The notes under the pieces were generated by a model that was not told the origin of the DNA, did no database searches, and worked only from the letters and a program-made list of their open reading frames with translations. The position numbers and the translations under genes were made by a program. From positions 1,116,001 through 1,180,000 of the forward strand of contig NZ_RBXA01000001.1 of NCBI RefSeq assembly GCF_003634755.1: DNA of 64,000 bases, given 5' to 3'. Shown here piece by piece: positions 1-20,277 of the stretch (positions are counted from its first letter, which is position 1; every line of letters begins with the position of its first letter). Origin of the DNA: Flavobacterium limicola. Lineage in GTDB: Bacteria; Bacteroidota; Bacteroidia; Flavobacteriales; Flavobacteriaceae.

Positions 1-36
1 GATCAGCTAATTTTACATTAATTAAGAAATTGAGTC

Positions 37-372
37 ATGGGGCAAAACAAAAATAAAGAACAAGTTTTACGATTAATAATTTCAAAAGCATGGGAAGATA
101 TTGATTTTAGAAAAAATTTAATAAGTGATCCAATAATAGCAATTGAGAATCTTACAGGAGCAAAAATCATATTGCCAGAAGGTAAAACACTAGTGGTAAA
201 TGATCAAACGGATAAGTCAAAGGTTTACATGAATATTCCAGTTGAACCCAGTATAGAAGATATAGAGCTTAATGAAGAGCAATTAGAAATTATTGCGGGA
301 GGTGGACAAACGGTATGGGCTGATTTAGTAAATAATTTATTTCCAGAATTGAAAGATATTATTAAAATCTAA
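37..372 (+). CDS. NHLP-leader RiPP precursor 1
   Basis: 111-residue precursor peptide. The leader resembles the nitrile hydratase alpha N-terminal region used by NHLM/proteusin-type precursors: KAWED near residue 18, LPEGKTLVV near 47, DQTD at 56-59, and an acidic ELNEEQLE helix before AGG at 87-89. This is a leader fold, not an enzyme. Cleavage after AGG would free a 22-residue amphipathic core beginning GQTVWADL with no Cys. The first of six tandem precursors, it has a more divergent leader than precursors 2-4. The C39 exporter at 14 kb is the expected leader peptidase. Only 36 bases precede it, so more precursors or the promoter may lie outside. Confidence 0.9.
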   Translation: MGQNKNKEQVLRLIISKAWEDIDFRKNLISDPIIAIENLTGAKIILPEGKTLVVNDQTDKSKVYMNIPVEPSIEDIELNEEQLEIIAGGGQTVWADLVNNLFPELKDIIKI

Positions 373-400
373 CCTCTTTATAATCTAAAAATAAATAAAT

Positions 401-718
401 ATGGAATTCACACAAGATCAAAAACTATACGCAGAAATTGTACAAAAAGCATGGGAAGATAAGAGTTTCAAAGATGAGTTAATGACTAACCCAATAGCTG
501 CAATTGAAAGATTGACTGGAAAAAAAATCAACTTGCCACCTGGAAAGAAAATGGTTGTAAGAGATCAAACAGATGAGTCTACGGTTTATATTAATATACC
601 TGCTAGGGTAGATTTTGACAACATGGAATTAAATGAAGAGCAGTTAGAAGCTGTTGCAGGTGGGAAGTCACCGATTAAAGACTTTCTACTATTTATATGT
701 CCTACTATAAGCGTATAA
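401..718 (+). CDS. NHLP-leader RiPP precursor 2
   Basis: 105 residues. The leader opens MEFTQDQKLYAEIVQKAWED and ends in AGG at 86-88; it is nearly the same in precursors 3 and 4, at DNA level too. The predicted core is only 17 residues, starts KSPIKDF and ends FICPTISV. It holds a single Cys followed by Pro. It lies 28 bases after precursor 1 on the same strand. A nearly invariant leader with an unrelated core is the hallmark of a peptide family sharing one processing and export machine. Family assignment is strong; the mature structure and activity are unknown. Confidence 0.9.
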   Translation: MEFTQDQKLYAEIVQKAWEDKSFKDELMTNPIAAIERLTGKKINLPPGKKMVVRDQTDESTVYINIPARVDFDNMELNEEQLEAVAGGKSPIKDFLLFICPTISV

Positions 719-752
719 CAAGAAAACTATTAATAACTATAAAATTAATCAA

Positions 753-1103
753 ATGGAATTCACACAAGAACAAAAATTGTACGCAGAGATTGTACAAAAA
801 GCATGGGAAGATGCTTCATTTAAACAAGAATTAATAGCAAATCCTGTTGCTGCAATAGAAAAATTAACTGGAAAAAAAATGAACCTTCCAGAAGGCAAAA
901 CATTAATAGTAAGAGATCAAACGGATGAATCTACTGTTTATATCAATATACCTGCAGCATCAAAAAAAGTAGATGATGTTGAGTTGAATGAAGAGCAATT
1001 AGAGGCAGTTGCTGGTGGAATTGAGGGTCCTGGTGGCTGTACTCCAACTTTTCCTTTTCCAGGACCTTGGACCCCGCTGCCAATTTTACCAGAGCTATAT
1101 TAA
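753..1103 (+). CDS. NHLP-leader RiPP precursor 3 (Pro-rich core)
   Basis: 116 residues with the same leader type as precursors 2 and 4 (AGG at 87-89). The 27-residue core is very rich in Pro, Gly and aromatics (IEGPGGCTPTFPFPGPW, then a TPLPILPELY end) and has one Cys. A second Gly-Gly six residues into the core (GPGG|CTP) gives an alternative cleavage site. Pro-rich cores do not resemble lantibiotic or thiazole substrates, which need several Ser/Thr/Cys. They could be hydroxylation substrates for the nearby JmjC oxygenase; that is inference only. Confidence 0.9.
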   Translation: MEFTQEQKLYAEIVQKAWEDASFKQELIANPVAAIEKLTGKKMNLPEGKTLIVRDQTDESTVYINIPAASKKVDDVELNEEQLEAVAGGIEGPGGCTPTFPFPGPWTPLPILPELY

Positions 1104-1132: not shown

Positions 1133-1474
1133 ATGGAATTTACACAAGAACAAAAACTGTACGCAGAAATTGTACAAAAAGCATGGGAGGACACAGCATT
1201 TAAAAAAGAATTAATCGAAAACCCAATAGCTGCAATTGAAAAATTTACAGGTAAAAAGATGAATTTACCTGAGGGTAAAACATTAGTTGTGAGAGATCAA
1301 ACAGATGAATCTACGGTATATATTAATATTCCAGCTAATTCACAAAATCCTGTAGATGTCGAGTTGAACGAAGAACAGCTTGAGGCTGTAGCAGGAGGAA
1401 TGATGCCTTTACCAATCATAACAATACCTTGGGGTCCTATTATTTGTTTTCCTCCAGGAACGGTAGAATTCTAG
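1133..1474 (+). CDS. NHLP-leader RiPP precursor 4 (Pro-rich core)
   Basis: 113 residues from the ATG at 1133. An upstream in-frame ATG at 1067 lies inside precursor 3 and would add 22 unrelated residues, so 1133, which starts MEFTQEQKLY exactly like precursor 3, is the real start. The leader ends in AGG at 87-89. The 24-residue core (MMPLPIITIPWGPIICF, then PPGTVEF) is Pro-rich and hydrophobic with one Cys. Leader identity with precursor 3 is nearly complete while the cores share only composition, indicating recent duplication with core diversification. Confidence 0.9.
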   Translation: MEFTQEQKLYAEIVQKAWEDTAFKKELIENPIAAIEKFTGKKMNLPEGKTLVVRDQTDESTVYINIPANSQNPVDVELNEEQLEAVAGGMMPLPIITIPWGPIICFPPGTVEF

Positions 1475-1507: not shown

Positions 1508-1873
1508 ATGATATACACTAAAGAAAATCAAGATAAAGGAGCTGAGTTGATGAGAGCTCTAGTAGAAAAAGCATGGGAATCTGCTGAGTTTAAAGAGCAG
1601 CTGGTAAAAAATCCTTTAAGAACCATAAAGGAATTTACTAATAATAGTTTTACTATACCCGAAAATAAAAAACTTTTAGTAGAAGACCAAACTAATGAAT
1701 CTATAATTTATTTGAATATTCCAGCAAAACTTAACTTGGATGAAATGGAGTTGACCGATGATCAATTAGAAATGGTTGCAGGTGGAGATATTATAGCAGC
1801 TTGCGCTATAGTAACAGTTATAGGAATGTTTGCTGGAGGCGGATATTTATTAGGGAAAGATTTAGCACAATAA
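1508..1873 (+). CDS. NHLP-leader RiPP precursor 5 (two-peptide-like core)
   Basis: 121 residues. The leader is more divergent (KAWESAEF, LLVEDQTNES) but keeps the architecture and ends in AGG at 91-93. The 28-residue core starts DIIAACAIV and has two overlapping GxxxG motifs, GMFAG and GYLLG, in a hydrophobic helix with a polar GKDLAQ end. This is typical of unmodified pore-forming peptides of the class IIb bacteriocin kind, where GxxxG mediates helix pairing (family knowledge). It pairs naturally with precursor 6, whose core has the same length and opening residues. Confidence 0.9.
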   Translation: MIYTKENQDKGAELMRALVEKAWESAEFKEQLVKNPLRTIKEFTNNSFTIPENKKLLVEDQTNESIIYLNIPAKLNLDEMELTDDQLEMVAGGDIIAACAIVTVIGMFAGGGYLLGKDLAQ

Positions 1874-1884: not shown

Positions 1885-2244
1885 ATGAATACTTATACAG
1901 AAAGTCAAACAGTTGGGTTAAAAGTTTTAAACAACTTATACCAGATGTCATGGGAAAGTCCAGAGTTCAAAGAAAGATTTATTAATAATCCTTCTATTAT
2001 AATTGAAGAAATTGTTGGGCATAAAATATCTTCTGATTATCGTTATCATGTAGAAGATCAGTCAGATTCATCAATAATCTATTTAAACATTCCACCAAAA
2101 AATGAATTAGATTCATTAGAATTGTCAGATGAACAATTAGAATTAGTTGCTGGAGGAGATGTAATAGCAGCAACTCTTATTATTGGTGGAATTTGCCTAG
2201 TTGCAGGTGCTATTGGATGTGCAGTGGGATATTATACAAATTGA
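1885..2244 (+). CDS. NHLP-leader RiPP precursor 6 (two-peptide-like core)
   Basis: 119 residues from the ATG at 1885; an earlier in-frame ATG at 1801 lies inside precursor 5 and yields non-leader residues, so it was rejected. The leader (MSWESPEFKE, VEDQSDSSIIYLNIP) ends in AGG at 89-91. The 28-residue core begins DVIAATLII, carries GCAVG (GxxxG) and two Cys nine residues apart that could form a disulfide, and ends GYYTN. It lies 11 bases after precursor 5, suggesting coupled production of the two peptides. A small membrane protein follows nine bases later. Confidence 0.9.
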   Translation: MNTYTESQTVGLKVLNNLYQMSWESPEFKERFINNPSIIIEEIVGHKISSDYRYHVEDQSDSSIIYLNIPPKNELDSLELSDEQLELVAGGDVIAATLIIGGICLVAGAIGCAVGYYTN

Positions 2245-2252: not shown

Positions 2253-2438
2253 ATGACACAAAAAGAAAAAAATGATGGAATTATTTTTTTTGTTATCATA
2301 GTTGGAATTGGGTTAGGATATTTTGGTTACCATTTAATTAATAATGACAATAAAAAAATCGGATATACTTTTATCGCATTAGGTCTAGTTATATTATTTA
2401 TTAATGCGATTATTGCAATTTTAAAATTGAAAAAATAG
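2253..2438 (+). CDS. Small two-helix membrane protein, candidate immunity protein
   Basis: 61 residues from the ATG at 2253; an earlier in-frame ATG at 2193 lies within precursor 6. It starts MTQKEKNDG, then has a hydrophobic segment at about 9-28, a short polar loop (NNDNKK) and a second segment at about 37-57, ending KLKK. There is no leader and no Gly-Gly, so it is not another precursor. Small two-helix proteins encoded right after hydrophobic bacteriocin genes are often immunity proteins. That role is inferred from size, topology and position only; no family was recognised. Confidence 0.75.
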   Translation: MTQKEKNDGIIFFVIIVGIGLGYFGYHLINNDNKKIGYTFIALGLVILFINAIIAILKLKK

Positions 2439-2686: not shown

Positions 2687-3901
2687 ATGATTACAAATAT
2701 TGAAACTAATAAAAAACTAGAAAGTTTTGAAGATTTAATTAATCCCATTAGTGTTAGAGATTTTAAAATTAATTATTGGGAGAAACAAGTCTTACACATA
2801 TCTCGAGATGATTCAGATTTTTTTTCAGCATTATTTTCTATTGATGATTTAGATAAACTTCTAGAGTATAGTCGTCCTAGAGGAATAAACCTAAAAGTTG
2901 TGAAAAGCCAGCAAACCTTGAATCCTACTGTATACGAAAACCAAGATGGGAGTTTAAATTTAAACCAGCTCTATGTTGCTTATGCAGATGGTCATACTAT
3001 CGTAGTTAATGAAATTCAACGGTTTTGGGATCCTATTAAAGAATTTGTTCAAAACATGCGATTGCAACTGAATCATAATGTGGTTGCAAATTTGTATTTG
3101 ACTCCCGAAAATGAAAAAGCTTTATCTCCGCATTATGATTCTCATGATGTTTTTGCATTGCAAATTTCGGGAGAAAAACATTGGGTAGTTTATGATGACA
3201 CCAATTTTAAAACACCTCTGTTAAACAGTTTTCAACCTGTTTTTCAAAGAGAACATTTAACTGGGGCGAAAGAAATCACAATGAAAGCGGGAGATATAAT
3301 GTATATTCCTAGGGGTGTGCCTCATGAAGCATATACTAAAGACACTTCTTCAATGCATATTACTATTGGGGTTCAACCTACACAATGGATAGATTTTATT
3401 ACAAAATCTTTATTAAATTTAAGCCAAAGTAATGTAGAATTGAGAAAAGCACTTCCAATAGGTTTTTTAAAATCAGATTTGAATAGTTTGTTAACTCAAG
3501 AAGCTAAAGAAGACTTTATAAAGATCTTACAAGCAGCTTTCAATGAAGATAATATTAAAGGTTCTTTAGGTATTCTAGAAGAAGAATTTAGGCTTAAAGA
3601 ACAACCAAAACCTGACGGACACTTTTTTCATTTGGATAATTTAAATAAAATTACTTTAGAAACTAAATTGACAAAAAGAGATTGTCTTACATCAAAAGTT
3701 GTAAATAATTTTAGTGGTGCTAGAATTTTGTTTCAAGGAAACACCATTAAAGGGCCTTCTCAAATTGTAAGTACCTTAGAATTTATTTCTGAGCAAAAAG
3801 GTATATTTAATGTTAAAGATATTCCATATGTGAATGATGACAACAAAGTGAAATTAGCAAAAAGACTTGTTAGAGGAGGCTTGTTAAAAATTGTTTATTA
3901 A
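2687..3901 (+). CDS. JmjC/cupin 2-oxoglutarate-Fe(II) oxygenase, candidate RiPP hydroxylase
   Basis: 404-residue protein of the bacterial JmjC ribosomal-oxygenase type (YcfD/RoxA-like, MINA53/NO66-like). The iron-binding triad is visible: H149 and D151 in PHYDSHDVFALQISGEKHW, and H213 in IPRGVPHEA. The C-terminal third, ending LAKRLVRGGLLKIVY, fits the winged-helix region of that family. Relatives hydroxylate Arg or His in ribosomal proteins. Here it sits directly between the precursor array and the RiPP export genes, so hydroxylation of a core or leader residue is a reasonable inference. It could still be a displaced ribosomal oxygenase. Fold confidence is high, substrate confidence low. Confidence 0.85.
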   Translation: MITNIETNKKLESFEDLINPISVRDFKINYWEKQVLHISRDDSDFFSALFSIDDLDKLLEYSRPRGINLKVVKSQQTLNPTVYENQDGSLNLNQLYVAYADGHTIVVNEIQRFWDPIKEFVQNMRLQLNHNVVANLYLTPENEKALSPHYDSHDVFALQISGEKHWVVYDDTNFKTPLLNSFQPVFQREHLTGAKEITMKAGDIMYIPRGVPHEAYTKDTSSMHITIGVQPTQWIDFITKSLLNLSQSNVELRKALPIGFLKSDLNSLLTQEAKEDFIKILQAAFNEDNIKGSLGILEEEFRLKEQPKPDGHFFHLDNLNKITLETKLTKRDCLTSKVVNNFSGARILFQGNTIKGPSQIVSTLEFISEQKGIFNVKDIPYVNDDNKVKLAKRLVRGGLLKIVY

Positions 3902-3932: not shown

Positions 3933-4670
3933 ATGACCAAAAAATGTCTCAGCTGTAATAGCGAAGTAGAAGATAATTTTTGCCCATTTTGTGGGCAAAA
4001 ATCTTCTACAAAAAGATTTTCTATGAAACATTTTGTTATTCATGACTTTATTCATGGCGTGTTTCATTTAGACAAAGGTTTTTTATTTACTGTGAAGGAA
4101 TTAGTAACTAGACCTGGACATAGTGTTCGAGAATATATACAAGGTAAAAGAGTTGATCATTTTAATTATTTCACAGGCTTTATTCTACTCCTTGCTGTAG
4201 GTCATTTCATTGGTAATTATTCACAAATTACCGGTGATCAATTATTTGAAGATGGTAAAATGTCGGGATTTCATAAAGTGGCAAAAGATTTCGCTAAATT
4301 TATTTTATTAGCCACTGTTCCTTTTTATGCTTTTGCTAGTTATTGCGTCTTTAAAAAAGCTAAATTAAATTACATAGAACATCTTGTAATGGCTATGTAT
4401 TTAATGAATGGGATATTGATAATAGGTTTATTTTTTACAAGCTTAACAGTCTTTTACGGGAACATAAAAGTTTTGAGCGTATTAAATTTGTTTAATCCTT
4501 TGTTAGAATTCATTTATATGTGCTTTTTTTTCTATCAATTTTTTTCAAAATTCCAATACAAAAAAAGTACTCTTTTTATCTTGATTATACTTAATGCGTG
4601 TCTTTTACTTATTTTAAAAGGATTAGTGAATTTTACTGTTGATCAAATAGGAATGGCATACTTTAAGTAA
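3933..4670 (+). CDS. DUF3667-family zinc-ribbon membrane protein
   Basis: 245 residues. An N-terminal zinc ribbon (C5, C8, C17, C20: CLSC...CPFC) is followed by the conserved segment with TRPGHSVREYIQGKR and then several membrane segments, roughly 75-95, 118-142, 148-172, 178-200 and 208-228. This matches the DUF3667 family of Bacteroidota, whose function is not established. It starts 31 bases after the oxygenase gene, probably in the same transcript. Similar proteins occur outside RiPP loci, so a role in peptide processing or immunity is not proven. Confidence 0.75.
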   Translation: MTKKCLSCNSEVEDNFCPFCGQKSSTKRFSMKHFVIHDFIHGVFHLDKGFLFTVKELVTRPGHSVREYIQGKRVDHFNYFTGFILLLAVGHFIGNYSQITGDQLFEDGKMSGFHKVAKDFAKFILLATVPFYAFASYCVFKKAKLNYIEHLVMAMYLMNGILIIGLFFTSLTVFYGNIKVLSVLNLFNPLLEFIYMCFFFYQFFSKFQYKKSTLFILIILNACLLLILKGLVNFTVDQIGMAYFK

Positions 4671-5772: not shown

Positions 5773-5937
5773 ATGAAACATTTATTTTATATTATAGCCA
5801 TTTTCGCACTAGTTGTAACTTTAAATTCTTGTACTGCAGACGAAATTGAAACAGAAAAACCTAAAGTTCAAGTACAATCTCAAGATGATGTTGATCCACG
5901 TAACAACGGTAGTGTTGTAATACCACCAAAGAAATAA
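5773..5937 (+). CDS. 54-residue lipoprotein upstream of the sensor kinase
   Basis: 54 codons from the ATG at 5773. The N-terminus (MKHLFYIIAIFALVVTLNSC) is a clear lipoprotein signal with lipobox LNSC and Cys at residue 20. The mature part is a short acidic tail, TADEIETEKPKVQ to VVIPPKK. It lies 111 bases upstream of a histidine kinase gene on the same strand. The tail has no room for a folded enzyme. It could be a ligand, anchor or accessory protein of that kinase; this is inferred from position. Confidence 0.7.
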   Translation: MKHLFYIIAIFALVVTLNSCTADEIETEKPKVQVQSQDDVDPRNNGSVVIPPKK

Positions 5938-6048: not shown

Positions 6049-8103
6049 TTGAAACTATTTCACATAGCATTGATTTTTATTCTATTTTTTTTGGGGTGCC
6101 AGCGTAAAGATGAAAAATTTTACGCTTCGACCACTAATACTATAGATTCCTTAATTTCAAATTCCAGAGACAAAACTAAAACTAAATCGGAAAGACTAGA
6201 AAAAGCATTATTAGCATTTAAAATTATTGAAAATAATAATGCTTTAGTAATATCCGCAGACTATTATTTTGAATTGGTAGATTCGTTTTTACAGCTTGGA
6301 GAGACTGATAAATGTCTTTACTTATTACAAAAATTGTATCGCAAATCAATTTTATTAAAAGATAACGAAGGCATTCAAAATGCAAGCTACAGTATTGCAG
6401 GTTTGTACAATAATGAAACAAAATATGATTCTGCGTATTATTATTACACAAAATCAGAAAAAGTCATTTTAAAAGAAAAAAATGATAATTTATTAGGAAA
6501 CGTTAAAATCCTAAAAGCAGAAATTTTATCATTTAGGAATGATTATATTGGAACCGAAAAACTAGCTATTGAGGCATTAAAAATTGGCATTGTTCAAGAA
6601 AATAATTTATTGATTTACAATTGTTATCTTACATTAGGTACTGCACTCATGGGCTTAAAGGATTATGATAAATCTTTAGAGTATTACAATAAAGCTATTG
6701 AAGCCTCTGAATATCTAAAATCAGAGCCAATGTATTTATCATATAAATGCCAACCCTATAATCATATTGCAAATATTTATGTAAAAAACCAAAAATATAG
6801 TAAGTCCATTGCATTTGCAAAACAGGGATTAGCTTTAGCTGATTTTAAAAAAATAGATCCTCCAATTTATTGTTATCTTATCAATAAATTGGCTTACTCT
6901 AAATTTAAACTAGGTGATAAATCATCATTTAAACAATTTGAAGAAACTTTAAGAATTGGCGACAGCATTGGAAGTACACCTATTCAGATAACTTCTAAAA
7001 TTTATTTAGGCGAATATTATTTAAATCAAAAAAACTACTCAAAAGCGAATTACTTCTTAAAAGAAGCGCAATTTCAAGCACATAAAAATAACCTTTTTGA
7101 AGACGAGCTCACAATTCTTAAATTATTAGCTCTTGTTAATCCTCAAGAGGAATCCTTTTTTTCAAATAAATATATTCAGCTTACTGATAGTCTTCAAGAT
7201 GTAGAGCGTACTTCTCGAGATAAATATGCCCGAATTGAGTTTGAGACTGACCAAATAGTCCAAGAAAAAAAAGTAGTTGAGGATAAAAAAAATGAAATCT
7301 CTAAACAGTTTTATTTATACGCTGCTTTAAGTGGATTTATATTGCTAATATTATTATTTGTTTTATCCATCAAAAACAAAAATATTAAACTTGAAAAATT
7401 GTTCCGTAAACAGGAACAAGCTCTTAATGATTCACAGATATACAATTTGATACTTTCAAATCAACAAAAAATTGAAGAAGGCAAGCTTATTGAAAAGCAA
7501 CGAATTTCCAGGGATCTCCATGATGGAATAATTGGAAAATTGTCAGCAATACGAATGAATTTATATGAAATTAAATACAATCAATCTCAAGAATCCATAA
7601 AAAAGCATTTAGATCATATTGCGGGTATGAAAGATATTGAAGAGGAAATTAGGAACCTTACACACGATTTAAATACTACTGTTTTTTCAGGCTCAGATGA
7701 TTTTGAAGCCATGATTAAAGCATTATTCACAGAGTTAAATCTAAATTCATTAGCTAAAATAAGCATAGAAGTTGATCCAAGAATAGTATGGTCTGTTATT
7801 GATAAAAATGTAAAAATGAATCTTTACAGAATTTTTCAAGAAGCTTTACAGAACATTAATAAATATGCAGACGCTAATTTAATAACGATTGCAATTACTA
7901 AAAATGAAACAAGTATAGGAGTTCAAATTGCTGATAATGGAAAAGGTTTTGAAATACAGCAAATTAAAAAAGGAATTGGTTTAAAAAATATGGAATATCG
8001 CACCATAGAGCTTAACGGACAATTCTCAATAGAGTCTAAACAAAATATAGGAACAAAAATAAATTTGTCAATCCCATTAGAATTCAATAAATTTGAGTTT
8101 TAA
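6049..8103 (+). CDS. TPR-sensor histidine kinase (HisKA_3 type)
   Basis: 684 residues from a TTG start. The N-terminus MKLFHIALIFILFFLGCQ looks like a lipoprotein or signal sequence. Helical TPR-like repeats follow (for example YDKSLEYYNKAIEA), to about residue 410, then one membrane helix at about 421-440, a coiled linker, the phospho-acceptor H491 in QRISRDLHDG, and a HATPase_c domain with EALQNINKYADA and DNGKGF. This is the common Bacteroidota layout in which an extracytoplasmic TPR region senses an unknown signal. The response regulator gene follows after six bases. Its place between RiPP biosynthesis and export genes suggests control of the cluster (inference). Confidence 0.88.
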   Translation: MKLFHIALIFILFFLGCQRKDEKFYASTTNTIDSLISNSRDKTKTKSERLEKALLAFKIIENNNALVISADYYFELVDSFLQLGETDKCLYLLQKLYRKSILLKDNEGIQNASYSIAGLYNNETKYDSAYYYYTKSEKVILKEKNDNLLGNVKILKAEILSFRNDYIGTEKLAIEALKIGIVQENNLLIYNCYLTLGTALMGLKDYDKSLEYYNKAIEASEYLKSEPMYLSYKCQPYNHIANIYVKNQKYSKSIAFAKQGLALADFKKIDPPIYCYLINKLAYSKFKLGDKSSFKQFEETLRIGDSIGSTPIQITSKIYLGEYYLNQKNYSKANYFLKEAQFQAHKNNLFEDELTILKLLALVNPQEESFFSNKYIQLTDSLQDVERTSRDKYARIEFETDQIVQEKKVVEDKKNEISKQFYLYAALSGFILLILLFVLSIKNKNIKLEKLFRKQEQALNDSQIYNLILSNQQKIEEGKLIEKQRISRDLHDGIIGKLSAIRMNLYEIKYNQSQESIKKHLDHIAGMKDIEEEIRNLTHDLNTTVFSGSDDFEAMIKALFTELNLNSLAKISIEVDPRIVWSVIDKNVKMNLYRIFQEALQNINKYADANLITIAITKNETSIGVQIADNGKGFEIQQIKKGIGLKNMEYRTIELNGQFSIESKQNIGTKINLSIPLEFNKFEF

Positions 8104-8109
8104 ATATTT

Positions 8110-8772
8110 ATGACAAAAAAAATATTAATAGTTGAAGATCATCCTTCAATGATTACTGCTTATCAGACTATTCTTTCGCATAATAGATTGGGCCATGATT
8201 TAGAGTTTTATTCAGCTAGCAATTGTGAATCCGCATACGAATGCATTTCAAATGAAATCAATACTATTTCTTTTGATTTGGTTATGCTAGATTATAGTTT
8301 GCCGCCTTTTCCTGATAAAAATATATTTAATGGTGGTGATTTAGCAGTTTTAGTTCATAAATATATTCCTTTAGCAAAAACACTAATTATTACCTCCCAT
8401 TTTGAAAGTGTTATTTTGTACAATATATATCAAAAAACAAAAGTCAATGGAATTTTGGTAAAAACAGATTTTGACGATGAGGAACTGTTATTGGCCTACG
8501 ATAAAATCATGGCTGGTGAAAACTATTTCAGTAAGACAGCTAAAAAAGCAAAAACTGATCGTTTATTAGCTGAAGGACATTTTGATACTATTGATCGTCA
8601 AATCATAACGTTAATATCTAATGGATGTCAAATAAAAACTATTGCCAGTACAATTAAAGTCTCTGAAGATACCGTTAAAAAGCGTAAAAGTAAAATTAAG
8701 GATATTTTAGGTATTGATAAAGGCAATGACGAAGACATTTTACGGGAGTGTAGGATATTAAGAATGATATAA
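8110..8772 (+). CDS. NarL/LuxR-type response regulator
   Basis: 220 residues. The receiver domain starts MTKKILIVEDHPSM, with the likely phospho-acceptor D61 in LVMLDYSLPP. A LuxR/GerE helix-turn-helix lies at about 160-212 (IKTIASTIKVSEDTVKKRKSKI). It is the partner of the upstream kinase by gene pairing and by matching type (HisKA_3 kinases pair with NarL-type regulators). Target promoters cannot be read from this sequence; the two long spacers flanking the pair are natural candidates. Confidence 0.88.
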   Translation: MTKKILIVEDHPSMITAYQTILSHNRLGHDLEFYSASNCESAYECISNEINTISFDLVMLDYSLPPFPDKNIFNGGDLAVLVHKYIPLAKTLIITSHFESVILYNIYQKTKVNGILVKTDFDDEELLLAYDKIMAGENYFSKTAKKAKTDRLLAEGHFDTIDRQIITLISNGCQIKTIASTIKVSEDTVKKRKSKIKDILGIDKGNDEDILRECRILRMI

Positions 8773-11166: not shown

Positions 11167-12732
11167 ATGAGGAATTACTTTTTGTTTTGTATTTTATTTA
11201 TTAGTTATAATCTTTTATATAGTCAGGCTAAAATCAAGTGTGATTTAATTGAGGTTTCAAGTATTGCATTTAATAAAAATCCAACCATTAGAAGTGCTAA
11301 TTACTCCATTCAAAATGCCGAAGCTAATTTACAACTTCAAAAAAGTATTTTTGATTTTAACTTAAATTCTGATGTTACATTTCAAAATAGAAAATACAAT
11401 CTTTTTGATGCAGATCCTAGAAATGATTTCGTCGATAAAACGCTTAGAAATAATTCATTTGATTTTTCAATTGGTTCACAAAAAAGACTTCGAACTGGAC
11501 AATCAATTGATATAGTTTTAAAATATAATTATAATAATACAAATTTTCCGTACAATGCTTTCAATGAACTTGTTGGCAGTTTTTATGGTAATCATTCTAG
11601 TACGCTTAACCTTGTTTTAACTCAACCACTTTTAAGAGGAAGAGGAGCTAAGATAGTTACAGCTTCAGAAAAAGCATCTGCTTTTTATATCAATAAAAGT
11701 AAATATGATTATGAGTTTGCAAATTCTTTTGAAATAGAGCAAATAGGTATTGCTTATTGGGATTATTATACGGCATATAAAAGTCTGTCAATTTATACTC
11801 AAAATGAGAATAGAGTAAGAGAGGTATTAAATATGACTACAGAACTTGTAAAAGCTGATAAAAAACCGCTGAGTGATTTAGATCAAGTCAATGCAGATTT
11901 AAGGAATCAAGAAAGGCTAACTGTAGTTGCAAAACAAAATTTGTATAACTCAAGAATTAATTTAGGAAGAGTTATTGGTCTAATCGATGAAGAAAGTCAA
12001 AGACTAGATATTCCTATTAATGATTTCCCCACTGTTTTAGAATCTGGTTATAATGAGATTATTGATAAAAATGCACTAATTAAAATAGCTAAGAGTAAAA
12101 GAGGTGATGTTAAAGCAATTGGAGAGGAATATAAAGCATTAGAACTTCAATATTTAGTAGCAACAAATAATCTAAAGCCTCAATTAAACTTATCAGCATT
12201 TGGTTTTTATGGGAGTGCAAGCGTAGGAAACGGAGTTGATAAATCATGGTCTTCTCTTGTTAATAATCAAGGTCAAGAACTAGGAGGTGGAGCCAAACTT
12301 TCATTTTCTTTTCCGTTGAATAACAATTTGGCCAAAGGGAATTATTCGATACGTAAAATTGCTTTGCAAAATCAAACTATAATAAATGAAAACATTCATA
12401 GAAATATTGAATTGAATATTGACCTAGCAGTTAATAATCTTATGAATAGTGTTTTAATTCTTCAAAAATCAAAAGAGTCTTTTGATTTTTATCAAAATGC
12501 ATTTAAAAATGAACAGATTAAGTTTCAATCCGGTTTAACTACTCTTTTGAATTTAATCTTATTTCAAGAAAGACTTACTGCTTCAGAATTAGAGAATTTA
12601 AACGCACAGCAACAATTCTCAAATGCAATCTTAATACTTAGGCACGAAACAGGTACGCTTATTTCTAAAGAAGATCTTGGGTTTAAAATTACTCAAAATG
12701 CATTTTATACTATTCCTAACACAGAAAATTAA
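11167..12732 (+). CDS. TolC-family outer-membrane efflux protein
   Basis: About 521 residues from the ATG at 11167, which gives a clean signal peptide (MRNYFLFCILFISYNLLYSQ). An earlier ATG at 11146 overlaps the preceding gene and adds seven residues before the signal. The body shows the long-helix and strand pattern of outer-membrane efflux proteins, with the strand motif LTQPLLRGRGAKIV and coiled helices near 200-260 and 410-500. It provides the outer-membrane exit for the exporter encoded just downstream, giving a complete type I style conduit. It starts seven bases after the previous stop. Confidence 0.88.
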   Translation: MRNYFLFCILFISYNLLYSQAKIKCDLIEVSSIAFNKNPTIRSANYSIQNAEANLQLQKSIFDFNLNSDVTFQNRKYNLFDADPRNDFVDKTLRNNSFDFSIGSQKRLRTGQSIDIVLKYNYNNTNFPYNAFNELVGSFYGNHSSTLNLVLTQPLLRGRGAKIVTASEKASAFYINKSKYDYEFANSFEIEQIGIAYWDYYTAYKSLSIYTQNENRVREVLNMTTELVKADKKPLSDLDQVNADLRNQERLTVVAKQNLYNSRINLGRVIGLIDEESQRLDIPINDFPTVLESGYNEIIDKNALIKIAKSKRGDVKAIGEEYKALELQYLVATNNLKPQLNLSAFGFYGSASVGNGVDKSWSSLVNNQGQELGGGAKLSFSFPLNNNLAKGNYSIRKIALQNQTIINENIHRNIELNIDLAVNNLMNSVLILQKSKESFDFYQNAFKNEQIKFQSGLTTLLNLILFQERLTASELENLNAQQQFSNAILILRHETGTLISKEDLGFKITQNAFYTIPNTEN

Positions 12733-12745: not shown

Positions 12746-14008
12746 ATGTCAGCACCTTTTTTTAGAAAATCGGCATTAGAAAAACTTTCAACTCCAGAAA
12801 AATTAGATCAATTAATTAAGGTCACTGGTACAAAAGCTTGGATAGCTTTAATTACAATTATAGTAGCAATTTTCACAGCGATAATATGGTCTTTTATGGG
12901 CACCGTAAAAACAAAATTAGATGTAATTGGTGTTGTACTGGGAGGGGACGTTCATGAAGTAGTTGCTACAGCACAAGGGCAATTAGTTGAGTTGAGAGTA
13001 GTAATAGGTAGTGCCGTTAAAAAGGGTGATATTATCGCTACAATTCGACAACCAGAACTATTTCAACAAATAGAAGATGCAAAAGCGGTTCTATCTGATA
13101 GAAAATTTGAAATGGAAAAGCTAATGTCTTATGGGAATCAAGGCACTCAACTACAAGGTGAAATAATTAGTCAATCCCGTGTAAGTATTAAAGGTGAAAT
13201 CGAATCAGAAAAAAAGAAGATTATTTTTTTGAATAATCAATTGGAATCAGAGAATGTTTTATTGGATAAAAGTTTAATAACTAAATCGCAAGTTGCCAAT
13301 ACGAAACAACAAATTGAGGTAGCTAAAAATACTATTGAAAGATTAAAAGGACAAATAGCTCAAACCTCAAGTCAACAAAATGATTTAGGTTTTGATATGC
13401 AACAGAAAGTGATATTACAAAAGCAAAGAATTGCGGAAGCTGAAAGAAATCTTCAGTTTTTAACTGAAAGATATGATAATCAAAGAAATATAAAAAGTCC
13501 ATATAGTGGAGAAGTAGTTGAGGTTTTAACTGATGCTGGAATTGTTGTTTCTATAGGGTCTCCATTATTTAAACTTAAAAATACAATCAAAACAAAGCAA
13601 TCTCAATTAAGAGGTATTCTTTATATTCCTTCCAAAGATGGGAAAAAAATCAAAAAAGGAATGGAAGCTTTAATTGTACCTTCGACTGTACAGCCTGAAG
13701 AATATGGGTTTATAAAAGGCAAAGTTACTTATGTGTCTGATTTTCCGATAACCCAACAAGGAATGCTCACATCTGTTAAAAATGATCAACTTACAAAGCA
13801 ACTTTTAGTAGGTGGTCCTTTGTTTGAAGTATATGTAGATTTTGAGAAAGACCCAGTATCGTATAGTGGTTATAAATGGACTTCAGCTAAAGGACCAGAT
13901 ATTTTTCTGAAAGAAGGAACATCATGTTTAGGTAAAATCACAATCAAACGAGAGCCTCCTGTAACATTAGTTGTTCCAGCGTTCAAGAAATTTTTTGACT
14001 TATATTGA
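12746..14008 (+). CDS. NHLM-system HlyD-type membrane-fusion (adaptor) protein
   Basis: 420 residues. A short cytoplasmic N-terminus (SAPFFRKSALEKLSTPEKLD) is followed by one membrane helix at about 33-55 (WIALITIIVAIFTAIIW). A biotinyl-lipoyl-like hairpin (GQLVELRVVIGSAVKKGDII), a long coiled coil from about 105 to 245 and a beta-barrel end complete the adaptor layout. The N-terminal LEKLSTPEKLDQL pattern is typical of the NHLM secretion-protein family. It would bridge the inner-membrane ABC exporter and the TolC-like channel. The intergenic gaps of 13 and 9 bases indicate one operon. Confidence 0.9.
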   Translation: MSAPFFRKSALEKLSTPEKLDQLIKVTGTKAWIALITIIVAIFTAIIWSFMGTVKTKLDVIGVVLGGDVHEVVATAQGQLVELRVVIGSAVKKGDIIATIRQPELFQQIEDAKAVLSDRKFEMEKLMSYGNQGTQLQGEIISQSRVSIKGEIESEKKKIIFLNNQLESENVLLDKSLITKSQVANTKQQIEVAKNTIERLKGQIAQTSSQQNDLGFDMQQKVILQKQRIAEAERNLQFLTERYDNQRNIKSPYSGEVVEVLTDAGIVVSIGSPLFKLKNTIKTKQSQLRGILYIPSKDGKKIKKGMEALIVPSTVQPEEYGFIKGKVTYVSDFPITQQGMLTSVKNDQLTKQLLVGGPLFEVYVDFEKDPVSYSGYKWTSAKGPDIFLKEGTSCLGKITIKREPPVTLVVPAFKKFFDLY

Positions 14009-14017: not shown

Positions 14018-16216
14018 ATGAAAAATATCATAAACTTACTTTTAAAAAAACAAAATAGACCTGTCAAAGTGCCTACTGTTCTTCAGATGGAAAGCGTTGA
14101 ATGTGGTGCTGCTGCTTTAAGTATTATTTTAGGACATTTTGGAAAATTTGTTCCATTAGAAAAATTGAGAATAGCTTGTGGGGTATCACGAGATGGATTA
14201 AAGGCTACAAATATTCTAAAAGCGGCTAAAGAGTTTGGGTTAGAGGCAAAAGGATACGCTAAATCTATTGAAAAATTAATGCAAATAGAAGCTCCAGCCA
14301 TTATTTTTTGGAATTTCAATCACTTTTTGGTACTTGAGGGTTTTACAAAAAACAGAGTTTACCTTAGTGACCCAGCTCAAGGTAGATATTACGTAACTCA
14401 CAAAGAATTTGACGATTCTTACACAGGTGTCGTTTTAACCTTTAGCCCTTCAAAAGAATTTGAAAAAGGAAATGATAAAAAAGGATTAATAGCATCACTA
14501 ATTTCAAGAATTACAAATTCTAAATTGAGTATAACCTATATTATTATTGCAAGCTTGTTTTTAGTAATTCCTGGTTTAGTAATTCCATCATTCCTTAAAA
14601 TATTTATAGATAAATATCTAATTAATAATTTTTCAGGTTTTGTAATGCCGCTTTTATTAATTATGAGTGCCCTTCTTATTGTTAATGCATCTTTAGTCTA
14701 TCTGCAGCAATACTTTTTACTTAAATTAGAAACAAAACTAGCATTAGTAACTTCTAGTAAATTTCTTTGGCATGTTTTTCACTTACCTATTGCTTTTTTT
14801 ACTCAGAGATATAGTGGTGAAATAGGTAATAGAGTTTCATTAAATGACAAAGTAGCAAAACTATTAAGTGGTGATTTAGCGAATGCTGCATTAAATGTTA
14901 TTGTTGTAATTTTTTATGCAATTTTAATGTTCTCTTATGATGTTACCCTGACTTTAATAGGTGTTTTTATGGCACTGTTAAATGTTGTTGCCTTAAAATA
15001 TGTTTCGACAGCTAGAAAAGACGGAAGCCGAAGATTGAGTAATGAAACTGGAAAGTTATTAGGAACTACTACTTCTGGAATAAGTATGATTGAAACATTA
15101 AAATCTTCTGGTAGAGAAAATGATTTTTTCACGAATTGGATTGGTTATTTGGCTAAAGTAATGAATGCTCAACAAGAATTTGGGTGGTTGACCATAAGGC
15201 TTAATATACTTCCAAACCTAATTTCATCTTTAACAAATACTTTAATTTTAGGTTTAGGGGCTTTGAGGATAATGGAAGGAGAGATGACTTTAGGAGCTTT
15301 AGTTGCCTTTACCTATTTAATGAATAATTTTATTACGCCAGTAAATCAATTAGTATCAGTAGGAGCTATGTTGCACGAGACGGAAAGCGATATGGCGCGT
15401 ATTGATGATGTAATGAACTATGAAATTGACAAACAATTTATTAATAACGAAGATAAAAATATCCAGCAGCCAAATAAGGATTGCGTAAATAACAAATTAA
15501 TTGGATATTTTGAAATGAAAAATGTGACTTTTGGATATAGTCCTACAATGCCAGCGTTAATAGAGAATTTTAATTTAAAATTAAGACCCGGAAGTAGAGT
15601 AGCACTAGTCGGAGGTTCTGGAAGCGGAAAGTCTACTGTGGCAAGAATAGCCTCAGGACTTTATGATCCCTGGGAAGGTGAGGTATTGCTTGATAATAAA
15701 AACAGAAAAGATATTTCTAGACATATCATTACAGAATCATTAGCAGTAATTGATCAGGAAGTTTTAGTGTTTAATGGTACTATTAAAGAAAATATTTCCT
15801 TTTGGGACGCAATGATTCCTGAAAAAAATATTATAAATTCTGCAAAAGATGCTGATATTCATGATGTTATTGCGGCTAGAAATGAAGGTTACGATAGCTC
15901 AGTTTTAGAAGGCGGTTCAAATTTTAGCGGTGGACAACGTCAACGAATTGAAATTGCTAGAGCTTTAGTTTGCAACCCTACAATTTTAATTATGGATGAA
16001 GCTACTAGCGCCTTGGATTCAACCACAGAAAAAATTGTGATGGATAATATTAAGAAAAGAGGATGTACTTGTTTAATTGTTGCCCATAGATTGAGTACTA
16101 TAATGGACTGTGATGAGATAATTGTAATGGATTTTGGTAAAATCGTAGAACGAGGCTCTCACAAAGAATTATTAAAACTAAATGGTGTTTATTCAAAATT
16201 GATTGAAACAAAATAA
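14018..16216 (+). CDS. NHLM C39-peptidase/ABC exporter
   Basis: 732 residues. Domains: C39 cysteine peptidase at 1-140 with catalytic C29 (VECGAAA), H102 (NFNHFLVL) and D118 (SDPAQG); ABC membrane domain at about 165-455; ATPase with Walker A GGSGSGKS at 532-539, SGGQ at 637-640 and Walker B ILIMDEA. All catalytic residues are present. Family knowledge: this class removes leaders after Gly-Gly and exports the core, matching the AGG sites of the six precursors. It is encoded between the adaptor and the second ABC protein. Confidence 0.95.
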   Translation: MKNIINLLLKKQNRPVKVPTVLQMESVECGAAALSIILGHFGKFVPLEKLRIACGVSRDGLKATNILKAAKEFGLEAKGYAKSIEKLMQIEAPAIIFWNFNHFLVLEGFTKNRVYLSDPAQGRYYVTHKEFDDSYTGVVLTFSPSKEFEKGNDKKGLIASLISRITNSKLSITYIIIASLFLVIPGLVIPSFLKIFIDKYLINNFSGFVMPLLLIMSALLIVNASLVYLQQYFLLKLETKLALVTSSKFLWHVFHLPIAFFTQRYSGEIGNRVSLNDKVAKLLSGDLANAALNVIVVIFYAILMFSYDVTLTLIGVFMALLNVVALKYVSTARKDGSRRLSNETGKLLGTTTSGISMIETLKSSGRENDFFTNWIGYLAKVMNAQQEFGWLTIRLNILPNLISSLTNTLILGLGALRIMEGEMTLGALVAFTYLMNNFITPVNQLVSVGAMLHETESDMARIDDVMNYEIDKQFINNEDKNIQQPNKDCVNNKLIGYFEMKNVTFGYSPTMPALIENFNLKLRPGSRVALVGGSGSGKSTVARIASGLYDPWEGEVLLDNKNRKDISRHIITESLAVIDQEVLVFNGTIKENISFWDAMIPEKNIINSAKDADIHDVIAARNEGYDSSVLEGGSNFSGGQRQRIEIARALVCNPTILIMDEATSALDSTTEKIVMDNIKKRGCTCLIVAHRLSTIMDCDEIIVMDFGKIVERGSHKELLKLNGVYSKLIETK

Positions 16217-16226: not shown

Positions 16227-19133
16227 ATGTCAACGCAAGAAAAAATATATATAGGAGTTGAAGAACCATTGATCCTTAATAGCACAGGTAAATTCTGGAT
16301 GGTAGTCTCTGGTGAAGTAAATGTATTTTATGTAAGAGTTGATGAAAAAGGGGATTATTTATGTGCGTTAAAATATCTATACTCAGCAAAAAAAGGAGAC
16401 TTATTATTTAGTTTACTTTCTGCTGACTCTAAGAATGATACCCGTTTAATTATTTTTTCAAACGAAGCTACTTTATTATCAATAGATAAACATAAACTTA
16501 TTGCTATTGATCATTTTTTTCTAGCAGGTATGATTGATAAATGGATACTAAAAACTTCATTTAAAATTAATTCAATTAATACTCCGAAAACTTATAAAAC
16601 GATTGACAGTTATAATTATTTTTATTTAAATCATGAAACGATTGCATACCCTTCTCATGGAATAAACTGGATAAATTTAATTGATGGTAAACTTTCTATT
16701 TTTTCAGATCATGAGATAATCAATTATAACGATGGTCTTAAATTTCCAATTCCTGTTTGTAATAAGTTATGGGTTAAGTCCTTGTCTGAATGTTCTGAGT
16801 TAAAATCAATGAGTACTAGAGAGGTTCTAGAAGATGAAATTAATTTTTTAATTTCTTTAGAAAAACTACAAGCTCATTTTTACAAACAACTTTGCAAAAA
16901 TATTGAGATCAATAGTTTATCAGAAAGTGATATTCTTAATGATAAATTAATTTATCAAGAAGAGGAATTGAAAAATACTTTAGAAAAAATAAAATCTATA
17001 GTTACAGGTAGTAAAAAAGAATCAGATCACTTCAAGAATAATAAAGCAAAGAAACAAAATATACTTTATTGGACATGTCAATTCATTGGAGAACAAACAG
17101 GTTTTAAATTTGAAGAGCCAAAATACTTTGAGTCAGATAATCATAATACAAATAATTATCTATTTGCAATTGCTCAAAGTTCTAAAGTAAGAATACGAAA
17201 AATTATTTTGCGAGATGTATGGTGGAAAGATGAAAATGGACATTTGTTAGCATTTCTAAAAGAATCTAATGAGCCTGTGGCTCTCATCCAAAAAAATTCT
17301 ACAACTTACTTAATTAAAAACCTTTCAAAAGGTACGGAAACTATAGTTAATAATGAAATAGCCGACTCTTTAGAACCTATTGGTTATATGTTTTTTACTG
17401 GATTTGATGTAAAAATGGATTCCATAAAAAAAGTATTAAGTTTCGCTATGCATGGTGTAAAAAAAGATGCCAGACTATTACTAGTTGCTTCCTTACTTGT
17501 TAGTTTAATAGGTTTATTAATTCCTATATTATCAGGAATGATATACGATGATGTAATACCTACGGCAGATAAATCTATACATTTAGAAATTTTCATGATT
17601 ATGATAATTATCGGTTTCGTATCTGCTGGACTGCAACTTGCACAGGGAGTGTTACAAATGAGGCTAGAGTCAAAATCAAGTGTTAATCTACAAGTAGGTG
17701 TAATGGATTATATACTTCGTTTACCTGTAACTTTTTATAAAAAATATACAGCAGGTGATCTTACAAATAGAGTTTTGAGTATTAATTCAATTAGACAAAT
17801 CTTATCTAATACATTGATGACTGTTGTACTTAGTGGGGCATTCTCATGTGTTAATTTATTACTTCTTTTTTATTATGATTCAAGCTTAGCATGGGTAGGA
17901 GTTGGGCTTGCTTTAATTGCTATTTCTTTTATGATTTTGATGGGCTGGTTAAAACTCAAGTACGATAGAGAGGTGTCAAAATATCAAGGAGATATTCAAG
18001 GTTTCCTTTTCGAATTTTTATCTGGAATTAGTAAAATAAGAATAACTGGAGGTGAAAAAAGAATTTTTTCTTTATGGGGTGAAAAGTTTTCAAAATTAAA
18101 AAAATTGGGCTTTAGTTCAGGTAGTTATCAAAATTTCGTTGAGGTTTTTAATAGTTCTTACCCTCTTTTTACAAGTATATTATTTTTTTCATTCATATAT
18201 TATACGGTTTTAAATTCTAAAGATTCAGCAATGTTGTCTGTAGGCTCATTTATGGCTTTTATGATTTCCTTTAACAAATTTTTAAATGATAGTTTAAGAT
18301 TGAGTATGGCATTTATTTCTTCACTTAGTGTTATCCCTCTTTACGAAAGGGTTAAGCCAATTCTAGAGGAAAAACCAGAATCAATAGAGGAGAGTATTGA
18401 TCCAGGTGAATTAATGGGTGAAATTGAATTGAATTCTATATCTTTTAGGTATTATGAAGATCAGCCTTTAATTTTAAAAAATATTACATTTAAGATAAAA
18501 CCTGGTGAAATGGTTGCTTTTGTAGGAGCTTCAGGCTCTGGAAAATCTACTATTATGAGACTCCTTTTAGGATTTGAACATGCCGAGTTAGGCTCAATAT
18601 TCTATGATGGTAATACATTTGACGTAATGAATAAAGAACTGACAAGACGACAAATAGGTGTGGTGCTACAAAATGGAGCGCTTATGTCAGGTAGTATTTA
18701 TCAAAATATTGTTGGCAATTCAGAATTAACACTAGATGATGCTTGGGCTGCCGCACGTATGGCTGGTATGGAAGATGATATAAAGAATATGCCAATGGAA
18801 ATGCATACGTTTATTAGTGAAGGAGCAGGAACCTTTTCAGGAGGTCAAAGACAAAGATTAATGATTGCGAGAGCAATTGCTCATAAGCCAAGATTATTAT
18901 TTATGGATGAGGCTACAAGTGCTCTTGATAATAAAACTCAAAATATTGTTGCAGAAAGTTTAGATAAACTTCAAGCCACACGTATAGTTATTGCACACAG
19001 GTTAAGTACTATAAAAAATGCTGACCGTATTTTTGTTTTAGAAAAAGGAGAAATAAAAGAATCAGGGAATTATGAAGAGTTAATTCAAAAGGATGGATTA
19101 TTTACAGAACTTGCTAAACGTCAAATTGCTTAA
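16227..19133 (+). CDS. NHLM-system second ABC transporter protein (no peptidase)
   Basis: 968 residues. The N-terminal 120 residues have a cNMP/cupin-like beta pattern (FWMVVSGEVNVFYVRV). A roughly 280-residue middle region of unknown function follows, then an ABC membrane domain at about 415-700 and an ATPase with Walker A GASGSGKS at 767-774, FSGGQRQR and LLFMDEA. There is no C39 peptidase. This layout is the NHLM permease/ATP-binding partner seen beside the peptidase-containing ABC protein; the two may form a heterodimer. The N-terminal fold recalls the stand-alone CAP_ED protein of the same operon. Confidence 0.9.
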   Translation: MSTQEKIYIGVEEPLILNSTGKFWMVVSGEVNVFYVRVDEKGDYLCALKYLYSAKKGDLLFSLLSADSKNDTRLIIFSNEATLLSIDKHKLIAIDHFFLAGMIDKWILKTSFKINSINTPKTYKTIDSYNYFYLNHETIAYPSHGINWINLIDGKLSIFSDHEIINYNDGLKFPIPVCNKLWVKSLSECSELKSMSTREVLEDEINFLISLEKLQAHFYKQLCKNIEINSLSESDILNDKLIYQEEELKNTLEKIKSIVTGSKKESDHFKNNKAKKQNILYWTCQFIGEQTGFKFEEPKYFESDNHNTNNYLFAIAQSSKVRIRKIILRDVWWKDENGHLLAFLKESNEPVALIQKNSTTYLIKNLSKGTETIVNNEIADSLEPIGYMFFTGFDVKMDSIKKVLSFAMHGVKKDARLLLVASLLVSLIGLLIPILSGMIYDDVIPTADKSIHLEIFMIMIIIGFVSAGLQLAQGVLQMRLESKSSVNLQVGVMDYILRLPVTFYKKYTAGDLTNRVLSINSIRQILSNTLMTVVLSGAFSCVNLLLLFYYDSSLAWVGVGLALIAISFMILMGWLKLKYDREVSKYQGDIQGFLFEFLSGISKIRITGGEKRIFSLWGEKFSKLKKLGFSSGSYQNFVEVFNSSYPLFTSILFFSFIYYTVLNSKDSAMLSVGSFMAFMISFNKFLNDSLRLSMAFISSLSVIPLYERVKPILEEKPESIEESIDPGELMGEIELNSISFRYYEDQPLILKNITFKIKPGEMVAFVGASGSGKSTIMRLLLGFEHAELGSIFYDGNTFDVMNKELTRRQIGVVLQNGALMSGSIYQNIVGNSELTLDDAWAAARMAGMEDDIKNMPMEMHTFISEGAGTFSGGQRQRLMIARAIAHKPRLLFMDEATSALDNKTQNIVAESLDKLQATRIVIAHRLSTIKNADRIFVLEKGEIKESGNYEELIQKDGLFTELAKRQIA

Positions 19134-19155
19134 TAATGGTCATTATATCTGAGAT

Positions 19156-20277
19156 ATGTTAAAAGAACTTGACGATAATAGAAGTCTTTGTTTTTCTGAA
19201 GGACTTAAAAAGTACTTAGAGAATAAATTTTTGGTAACAAAAAACGTGACAACACCTTTGTTTGATGAAATGGATCTTGAATATTGGAGAGGGATTTCAA
19301 CGCGAATTTCAAAAGGGAATACAGTTTTTAATGAATTAAAAAAATGTTATCCTCAATTGAATTTCCCAATACAATTAGGCATAGAAAAAACAGAATTTTA
19401 TAAAGATATAGTGTTAAGAGGAAAAATAGTTGATATGAATTTTCCTTTTTTACTAAATTTAAATGATTTTAAAAATATTACATTTAAAATTCATAAAAGT
19501 ATTTCTGGTTCAATATCTATAGTAACGGTTTCAAATATTGAAGACTTCACAACGATTATACAGTCACTTTTATATAAAAATAACCCTAAACATGTTCCGC
19601 AATCTATGGGCGCCGTTTTAATAAATGGCATCAATAATTGGGAGAGATTAACCATTTTAAAAAACAAATGGTTAGCAACGAATACTTTTGGAAATTGGGC
19701 AAAAGAGTTTACTTGTAATGTTTTGCCTAATAAGAACTTATATAAAGATAATTTGATTATATTGAGTACAAAACCCTATAGTAATGTAGCTGCAAAACAA
19801 TTGGGTTTGGCTGAGAGTTTATGGTTATCCTATTCTATTTCGATAAGAGAAGAACATGAATGCACACATCTATATACTCTTAAAAAATTTGGGAGAGCAT
19901 CAAATAATTTACACGATGAGTTAATTGCAGATTATATAGGAATTGTAAAAACAATTGGATACTACAATAAATCATGGATGTTGCTATTTATGGGGCTTGA
20001 GGAGTATCCTAAATACAGAAAAGGAGCAAGATTAGAAAATTATATTTTAGACAATGAATTATCTCAAGAAGACTTTAAACAATTAATCAAAGTAATTAAA
20101 AGTGCTATTGAAAATATTTCTATTTTTGATGAAACCTCTGGAAAATTACTCTCAACGATAGATCAAATGTGCAGGATAGATGCTCTTTGTGAAACAAGTT
20201 TGGAAGAATTATCATCTACAAATGGAGCAACTTTACTTATTTATAATTACTATAAAAGGTTCAAAAAAGAAATTTAA
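19156..20277 (+). CDS. Unrecognised protein with HExxH...E zinc-metallopeptidase signature
   Basis: 373 residues, last gene of the export operon (22 bases after the ABC gene). I recognise no named family for the whole protein. A gluzincin-like signature is clear: HECTH at 234-238, then E255 and D259 in HDELIADYIG, 17 residues after the second His, as in peptidases with an HExxH...ExxxD arrangement. No signal peptide or membrane helix is evident, so it is probably cytoplasmic. Possible roles are second-step leader trimming, core maturation or inactivation of unexported peptide. Alternatively the metal site may serve a non-peptidase function. The motif is visible; the function is inferred. Confidence 0.7.
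   Translation: MLKELDDNRSLCFSEGLKKYLENKFLVTKNVTTPLFDEMDLEYWRGISTRISKGNTVFNELKKCYPQLNFPIQLGIEKTEFYKDIVLRGKIVDMNFPFLLNLNDFKNITFKIHKSISGSISIVTVSNIEDFTTIIQSLLYKNNPKHVPQSMGAVLINGINNWERLTILKNKWLATNTFGNWAKEFTCNVLPNKNLYKDNLIILSTKPYSNVAAKQLGLAESLWLSYSISIREEHECTHLYTLKKFGRASNNLHDELIADYIGIVKTIGYYNKSWMLLFMGLEEYPKYRKGARLENYILDNELSQEDFKQLIKVIKSAIENISIFDETSGKLLSTIDQMCRIDALCETSLEELSSTNGATLLIYNYYKRFKKEI

Follow-up and report, generated by a model that had tools for sequence, protein, structure and literature searches.

Gene content of the locus

The window, by which we mean the whole 64 kb stretch of Flavobacterium limicola DNA analysed here (G000:C1:1116001-1180000), opens with a run of NHLP-leader precursor genes, behind which lie a small membrane protein, a JmjC_2 oxygenase, regulators and the export genes of an NHLM system, the last of these followed by a DUF7005 protein (Table 1). 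ABC1 with its C39 domain, ABC2 and the HlyD adaptor all scored above the curated cut-offs, which places the locus among the NHLP/NHLM systems. The initial annotation, made from the letters alone, had named the NHLM ABC pair, HlyD, TolC, CAP_ED and regulators in the window, and profile searches bear this out (the response regulator was named by eye); its six NHLP-leader precursors are likewise confirmed as six ORFs with TIGR03793 matches, four of which pass the cut-off of 50.9 bits. Seven NHLP leaders were found in the whole genome, every one of them in this locus (four above cut-off). A 54-aa lipoprotein-like ORF (window 5774-5937) lies 5' of the kinase gene and is kept in G091 and G112.

Table 1 Features of the locus, in window coordinates except where contig (C1) coordinates are given.
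Feature	Position	Strand	Evidence and remarks
Seventh NHLP precursor, left of window	C1:1113065-1113403 (= L005:17065-17403)		TIGR03793 42.9 bits
TPR adenylate/guanylate cyclase, left of window	C1:1113496-1115460		Profile match
NHLP precursor 1, core (G)QTVWADLVNNLFPELKDIIKI	37..372	+	TIGR03793 52.5 bits; core type also in dehydratase loci
NHLP precursor 2	401..718	+	TIGR03793 58.9 bits
NHLP precursor 3, proline-rich core	753..1103	+	TIGR03793 59.1 bits; similar cores in dehydratase loci
NHLP precursor 4, proline-rich core	1133..1474	+	TIGR03793 61.1 bits
NHLP precursor 5, hydrophobic core, Asp start, pair member 1	1508..1873	+	TIGR03793 48.4 bits, below cut-off
NHLP precursor 6, hydrophobic core, Asp start, pair member 2	1885..2244	+	TIGR03793 42.8 bits, below cut-off
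61-aa protein, two predicted membrane stretches, candidate immunity protein	2253..2438	+	Small membrane ORFs track hydrophobic cores
JmjC_2 oxygenase, NO66/MINA53-type fold, C-terminal winged-helix-like part	2687..3901	+	PF08007 1e-27
DUF3667 membrane protein	3933..4670	+	PF12412 2e-10; also in G178 and G164 loci
TPR sensor histidine kinase	6049..8103	+	HisKA_3, HATPase_c and TPR profiles
Response regulator	8110..8772	+	Named by eye; homologues adjoin kinase in G091 and G112
AraC-type regulator	9865..10518	+	HTH_18 4e-16; present in 7/7 close loci
CAP_ED cyclic-nucleotide-binding protein	10620..11159	+	PF00027 2e-16; TIGR03896 121.1 bits, below cut-off 161.05
TolC-type outer-membrane channel	11167..12732	+	OEP 3e-27
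HlyD adaptor, NHLM type	12746..14008	+	TIGR03794 301.9 bits, cut-off 156.2
ABC1, NHLM: C39 peptidase, permease and ATPase	14018..16216	+	TIGR03796 1038.7 bits, cut-off 853.3; Peptidase_C39 2.5e-38; Cys motif present
ABC2, NHLM: permease and ATPase	16227..19133	+	TIGR03797 850.1 bits, cut-off 709.4
DUF7005 HExxH protein, predicted peptidase of export module	19156..20277	+	PF22541 2e-119

Precursors 5 and 6 form a hydrophobic, GxxxG-bearing pair whose matches to class IIb bacteriocin models are weak and below cut-off (precursor 5 against TIGR03949, 18.9 bits, cut-off 21.5). The 61-aa membrane protein matched no NCBIfam model; of 28 loci, those with hydrophobic cores (best 16-residue hydropathy >= 1.6) had a small membrane ORF 3' of the precursors in 14 of 15 cases and those without in 1 of 13, the sole match among the latter being an ORF that overlaps the dehydratase gene of G008. 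One locus with a hydrophobic core, L058, fell beyond the script limits of this count, and L062 was anchored on a later precursor. Core types recur in the core tables, and the precursor 1 and proline-rich types occur with JmjC or dehydratase alike.

Search for classical maturases

The initial annotation had seen no classical maturase in the window, allowed that one might lie left of base 1, and proposed a profile search there. The search, carried out over 20 kb (L005, whose ORFs were judged by eye except where profiled), turned up no such gene; the seventh NHLP precursor and the TPR cyclase were found instead, and the locus is completed by them. Across the genome there was no match at E <= 1 to the LanM dehydratase domain DUF4135 (one control genome responded, below cut-off) or to YcaO (seven control genomes responded), and none at E <= 0.01 to SPASM radical SAM or MNIO (PF05114) proteins (10 and 2 control genomes responded, respectively); LanB (PF04738) matched nothing in this genome and likewise nothing in any control genome. 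The lack of a classical maturase therefore holds genome-wide for DUF4135, YcaO, SPASM radical SAM and MNIO, and for the ORFs of the 20 kb to the left.

A rare JmjC oxygenase beside the precursors

The protein encoded behind the precursors has a JmjC_2 domain, the HxD...H triad with the 2-oxoglutarate lysine, and the NO66 fold. Its predicted metal triad (H149, D151, H213) and K164, which we take to be the 2-oxoglutarate lysine, were kept in 63 of 63 aligned rows, and the structural model (pLDDT 91) matched NO66 best (E 1e-28, TM 0.78 by query, 22% identity in the structural alignment). Fold and predicted metal ligands are as in NO66, MINA53 and YcfD, which act on ribosomal proteins, whereas the JmjC here is linked to peptide export. 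In the model the C-terminal part runs through strands and then helices, an order like that of the RRE-like domains on PF08007 proteins, which the accessible part of PMC12710340 describes together with bacterial homologues in RiPP-like contexts.

Homologues of the JmjC are scarce, occurring in 3 of 199 genomes at E 1e-15 (the third, G164, 28% identical), in 2 of 397 at E 1e-60 and in 4 of 390 at E 1e-40 (the fourth, G459, 30% identical), these three samples overlapping. Where close homologues were inspected (G000, which is this genome, G178 and G283) they were linked to the exporter; G283 carries JmjC, LanB, NHLP and export genes in one locus, and a Pseudanabaena plasmid has a JmjC of 42% identity flanked by Nif11/LanM genes on one side and by NHLM genes on the other. 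G459 and two other plasmids gave hits without NHLM genes nearby.

The ribosomal substrates of the best solved relatives (NO66, MINA53, YcfD) support a reading in which no core is modified, the products being bacteriocins whose leader is unusually long, and the JmjC has a part in regulation or in protecting the producer itself, for instance through hydroxylation of a ribosomal or target protein; the weak, sub-cut-off class IIb matches of the hydrophobic pair and the lack of any other tailoring enzyme in view would also fit. We regard this as unlikely: 196 of 199 relatives lack the JmjC (E 1e-15), which is therefore no housekeeping enzyme; it sits behind the precursors in the position of a dehydratase, and the core start varies with it (see below). 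The genomic context speaks for peptides, not a ribosomal protein, as the predicted JmjC substrate.

Two side observations concern JmjC loci. In G459 (L127) the JmjC_2 gene (8084-9271) lies directly 3' of a 74-aa Asp-Gly-repeat ORF (7755-7979), perhaps a precursor with Asp as substrate. In G164:C2 (L110:279-3782) two tandem JmjC-like ORFs are accompanied by a DUF4135 gene and by a 93-aa ORF of NHLP-like type, a putative second JmjC-peptide cluster, in Chryseobacterium.

Apparent exchange of the enzyme on a shared export frame

NHLM ABC1 was detected in 7 of 199 genomes at E 1e-150, this one included, and we compared 40 kb around ABC1 in the other six. The seven loci have a common frame of cyclase, NHLP genes, AraC, CAP_ED, TolC, HlyD, ABC1, ABC2 and DUF7005. 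In 6/6 near relatives with the exporter a DUF4135 protein of 499-630 aa is encoded 3' of the precursors, none of the six having a LANC domain (Pfam, E 0.05), and the one scanned with NCBIfam covers LanM positions 1-519 of 932. This genome has the JmjC 3' of the precursors and no DUF4135, and G178 has both, a JmjC (70-71% identical) and then DUF4135. As the JmjC occupies the slot of the relatives' LanM dehydratase, the same export frame seems able to serve different chemistries.

A wider sample was drawn with a CAP_ED-alignment scan of genome contigs, which gave at least 327 confirmed stretches; the best 80 were used, of which 39 were treated as Bacteroidota, and with the seven loci above these make 46 entries, including four repeats of genomes already compared (L029, L032, L036, L039, all with DUF4135) and L089, which looks unlike the other loci yet was kept in both the 39 and the 46. 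Counting only the stretch at each locus (~10 kb upstream of CAP_ED for named loci), and for these Bacteroidota among the best 80 of at least 327 plus the seven, JmjC was present in 9/46 entries, seven of them without DUF4135 (one of the seven with LanB) and two with it; DUF4135 without JmjC made up 25 (three also with LanB), LanB alone two, and ten had none of the three in the stretch. Loci that have JmjC but no LanM dehydratase come from Flavobacterium, Spirosoma, Aquimarina and Tenacibaculum.

The comparison of homologous Bacteroidota clusters that the initial annotation had suggested thus reveals a modification gene that varies on a shared export frame, and it divides that annotation's proposal of an oxygenase-only RiPP class. 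The oxygenase-only part is reasonable, because neither the 20 kb to the left nor, for four families, the genome yielded a classical maturase, and JmjC loci lacking a LanM dehydratase occur in other genera as well; a class of its own it is not, because the same locus in 6/6 near relatives has a LanM dehydratase half, and we therefore see here one setting of an exchangeable-enzyme locus. Two minor observations concern the same loci: a ThiF/E1-like protein of ~250 aa (PF00899 3e-29; L051:6701-7456 and similar, 8 ORFs in named Bacteroidota loci) is a possible further exchangeable enzyme, and a Rudanella NHLM locus (L046:7440-9050) has a C39-like domain fused to a VKOR domain.

The dehydratase in six near relatives, and the presence of both genes in G178, could also mean that the locus has lost its maturase and is decaying, with the JmjC gene as a bystander. 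We consider this very unlikely, as the genes are intact ORFs, tblastn found no DUF4135 remnant (best E 0.22), and F. tiangeerense (L026) has the same arrangement with a JmjC only 71% identical to that here and a different precursor set. The two genomes share 91% identity in the frame (17.6 kb), and the six flanking proteins compared show 94 to 99%, whereas nucleotide identity within the JmjC gene is 58 to 82% in eleven 100-base blocks and returns to 98% in the last full block. The precursor-enzyme cassette looks to have been replaced between them, and a diverged JmjC with other cores beside near-identical flanks suggests both exchange and use.

The start of hydrophobic cores varies with the enzyme

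Core starts were compared between loci with and without JmjC, leaving out the four repeats, cores shorter than 18 residues or not parsed, and L062; at a Gly-Gly-Gly site the parser may take one Gly into the core. With loci drawn partly from the best 80 of at least 327, hydrophobic cores began with Asp or Glu in 9 of 10 cases with JmjC (G000, G178, L026, L052; the sole exception is a Thr-rich core of G178) versus 0 of 22 without, while Ser or Thr stood in the first three positions of 1/10 versus 20/22. By locus, in the same sample, an acidic start was seen in 4/4 versus 0/11 (p 7e-4, a value too small because the compared rows are related). L062, with a divergent JmjC and DUF4135, has one ITP core; its inclusion gives 9/11 acidic JmjC cores (p 1e-6 by core) and 4/5 versus 0/11 loci (p 3e-3), again for loci partly from the best 80 of at least 327 and with p-values too small for related rows. 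Both kinds of core occur within Flavobacterium and Spirosoma (L026 and L052 versus L030-L038 and L053).

Leader ancestry fails to account for the acidic start, since in the leader tree the precursor 5 leader falls within a group whose cores begin with LTP/ITP (supports 97/80 and 96/89). The core-start label is hardly clustered on this tree, requiring 8 changes, at least 2 of them forced by strong branches, versus a shuffled mean of 9.4 to 9.5. Covariation in four loci with related cores makes the Asp/Glu directly after Gly-Gly the best candidate substrate residue.

Two JmjC loci, L057 and L060, carry NHLP genes with amphipathic cores, and the stretch analysed at each contains no hydrophobic core; the JmjC there must therefore have another substrate or role, and the hydrophobic pair cannot be the only substrate of the JmjC family. 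These loci, together with the presence of precursor 1 both here and elsewhere, lend weight to a reading in which the JmjC tailors another core, of the amphipathic precursor 1 type or proline-rich, and the hydrophobic pair is exported unmodified in the manner of class IIb peptides. Against it, those same core types also occur in dehydratase loci lacking JmjC, and what changes with JmjC is the acidic start of the hydrophobic cores, so that we give it a low probability.

DUF7005 follows the exporter

The residues H234, E235, H238, D254, E255 and D259 of DUF7005 were invariant in 55 rows. The D-E-x-x-x-D stretch resembles that of zinc peptidases (a thermolysin likeness); a structure search gave weak zincin matches, no NCBIfam model matched up to E 0.1, and structure searches spoke neither for nor against the 2-oxoglutarate HExxH hydroxylases (IPR026337). 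Among the 39 Bacteroidota loci from the best 80 of at least 327, DUF7005 lies directly 3' of ABC2 in 35, be they with dehydratase, JmjC, LanB or none; of the four exceptions in that set, two lie on contigs that stop at ABC2 or soon behind it, L059 has a cyclase in that place, and L089 is different. In the phylum sample DUF7005 was present in 11/395 genomes at 12 places, with ABC2 adjoining in the short flank at 8/12. At one of the four places without ABC2 (L115), ORFs 323-739 and 2095-2358 look, by eye, like Nif11-leader precursors.

The JmjC and the HExxH protein had been proposed as the sole candidate processing enzymes. The JmjC stands as a candidate; DUF7005 is an unlikely maturase, since it follows ABC2 whichever enzyme is present (35 of the 39 loci from the best 80 of at least 327), and is probably a processing peptidase, as its invariant HExxH and D-E-x-x-x-D residues, its weak zincin matches and its place behind the exporter suggest.

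Proposed mechanism and relation to known systems

We favour, by a little over an even chance, a reading in which the JmjC 2-oxoglutarate oxygenase in the LanM-half slot hydroxylates peptides, most likely the hydrophobic pair, which is predicted to act as a two-peptide bacteriocin. In this scheme the JmjC would oxygenate the core while binding the precursor, perhaps by means of its C-terminal winged helix; cleavage behind Gly-Gly would fall to the C39 domain of ABC1, and export of the peptides to ABC1/ABC2-HlyD-TolC. Two GxxxG-bearing helices may then pair in the target membrane, the 61-aa membrane protein may protect the producer, DUF7005 may dispose of or trim leaders as the peptidase of the export module, and the cyclase and CAP_ED may couple the system to a cyclic nucleotide; we infer immunity, cyclic-nucleotide control and pore formation from gene company. 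A narrower version, offered tentatively and with a clearly minority chance, would make the JmjC the sole maturase of an NHLP class, acting by hydroxylation on the Asp/Glu that opens the core of a pore-forming two-peptide bacteriocin, and cassette-exchanged with cyclase-less LanM dehydratases on a conserved, cyclic-nucleotide-linked export frame.

Two-peptide class IIb bacteriocins consist of two hydrophobic GxxxG-type peptides behind Gly-Gly, with a small membrane protein adjoining. The Gly-Gly, the GxxxG pair and the membrane protein are alike here, whereas the long NHLP leader, the Gram-negative exporter and the JmjC set this locus apart from them. The leader family, C39 ABC1, ABC2 and HlyD match the models that define NHLP/NHLM systems in the accessible part of Haft, Basu and Mitchell 2010 (PMC2887384); measured against the systems in that text, the JmjC as only candidate tailoring enzyme, the hydrophobic pair with its small membrane protein, DUF7005 and the cyclase are different, and the cores do not belong to its heterocyclisable type. 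The same source already noted NHLPs for which no enzyme was known.

According to the sections of PMC10676384 available to us, CcaM of carnazolamide is a Chryseobacterium LanM variant acting on an NHLP precursor. Both CcaM and the DUF4135 proteins of the relatives go with NHLP precursors; CcaM has a fused cyclase-like domain and works with YcaO, whereas the relatives' proteins are DUF4135 only and this genome has none. BipG, in the portion of PMC12707348 available, is the JmjC ornithine hydroxylase of biphenomycin and was shown to hydroxylate a RiPP peptide; its pathway has an MNIO and a radical SAM enzyme and its substrate is ornithine, and we liken it to the JmjC here by description only. A published HExxH protein, as far as the accessible part of its description goes, also lies in a cluster with an NHLP-type precursor, but DUF7005 differs from it in the D-E-x-x-x-D stretch, in having no NCBIfam match and in tracking the exporter. 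A literature search that covered few subscription papers found no description of a JmjC in an NHLP/NHLM locus. As enzyme-less NHLPs and JmjC proteins in RiPP pathways or contexts are already known, what may be new is the combination, together with the exchange.

If the proposed hydroxylation is correct, the loci would amount to a natural swap experiment, combining related leaders and a single exporter with two chemistries and with a core residue that differs according to the enzyme. The RiPP toolbox would gain a peptide hydroxylase, one group of NHLP systems lacking a known maturase would be explained, and DUF7005, a family of no assigned function, would find its place at peptide export; the cyclase-less LanM halves of the relatives would predict dehydrated, uncyclised peptides in Flavobacterium and Chryseobacterium.

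The cyclase-adjacent precursor (L005:17065-17403 and homologues) has a core of TPPII- type that is conserved in loci with either enzyme, and its role may be signalling and not attack.
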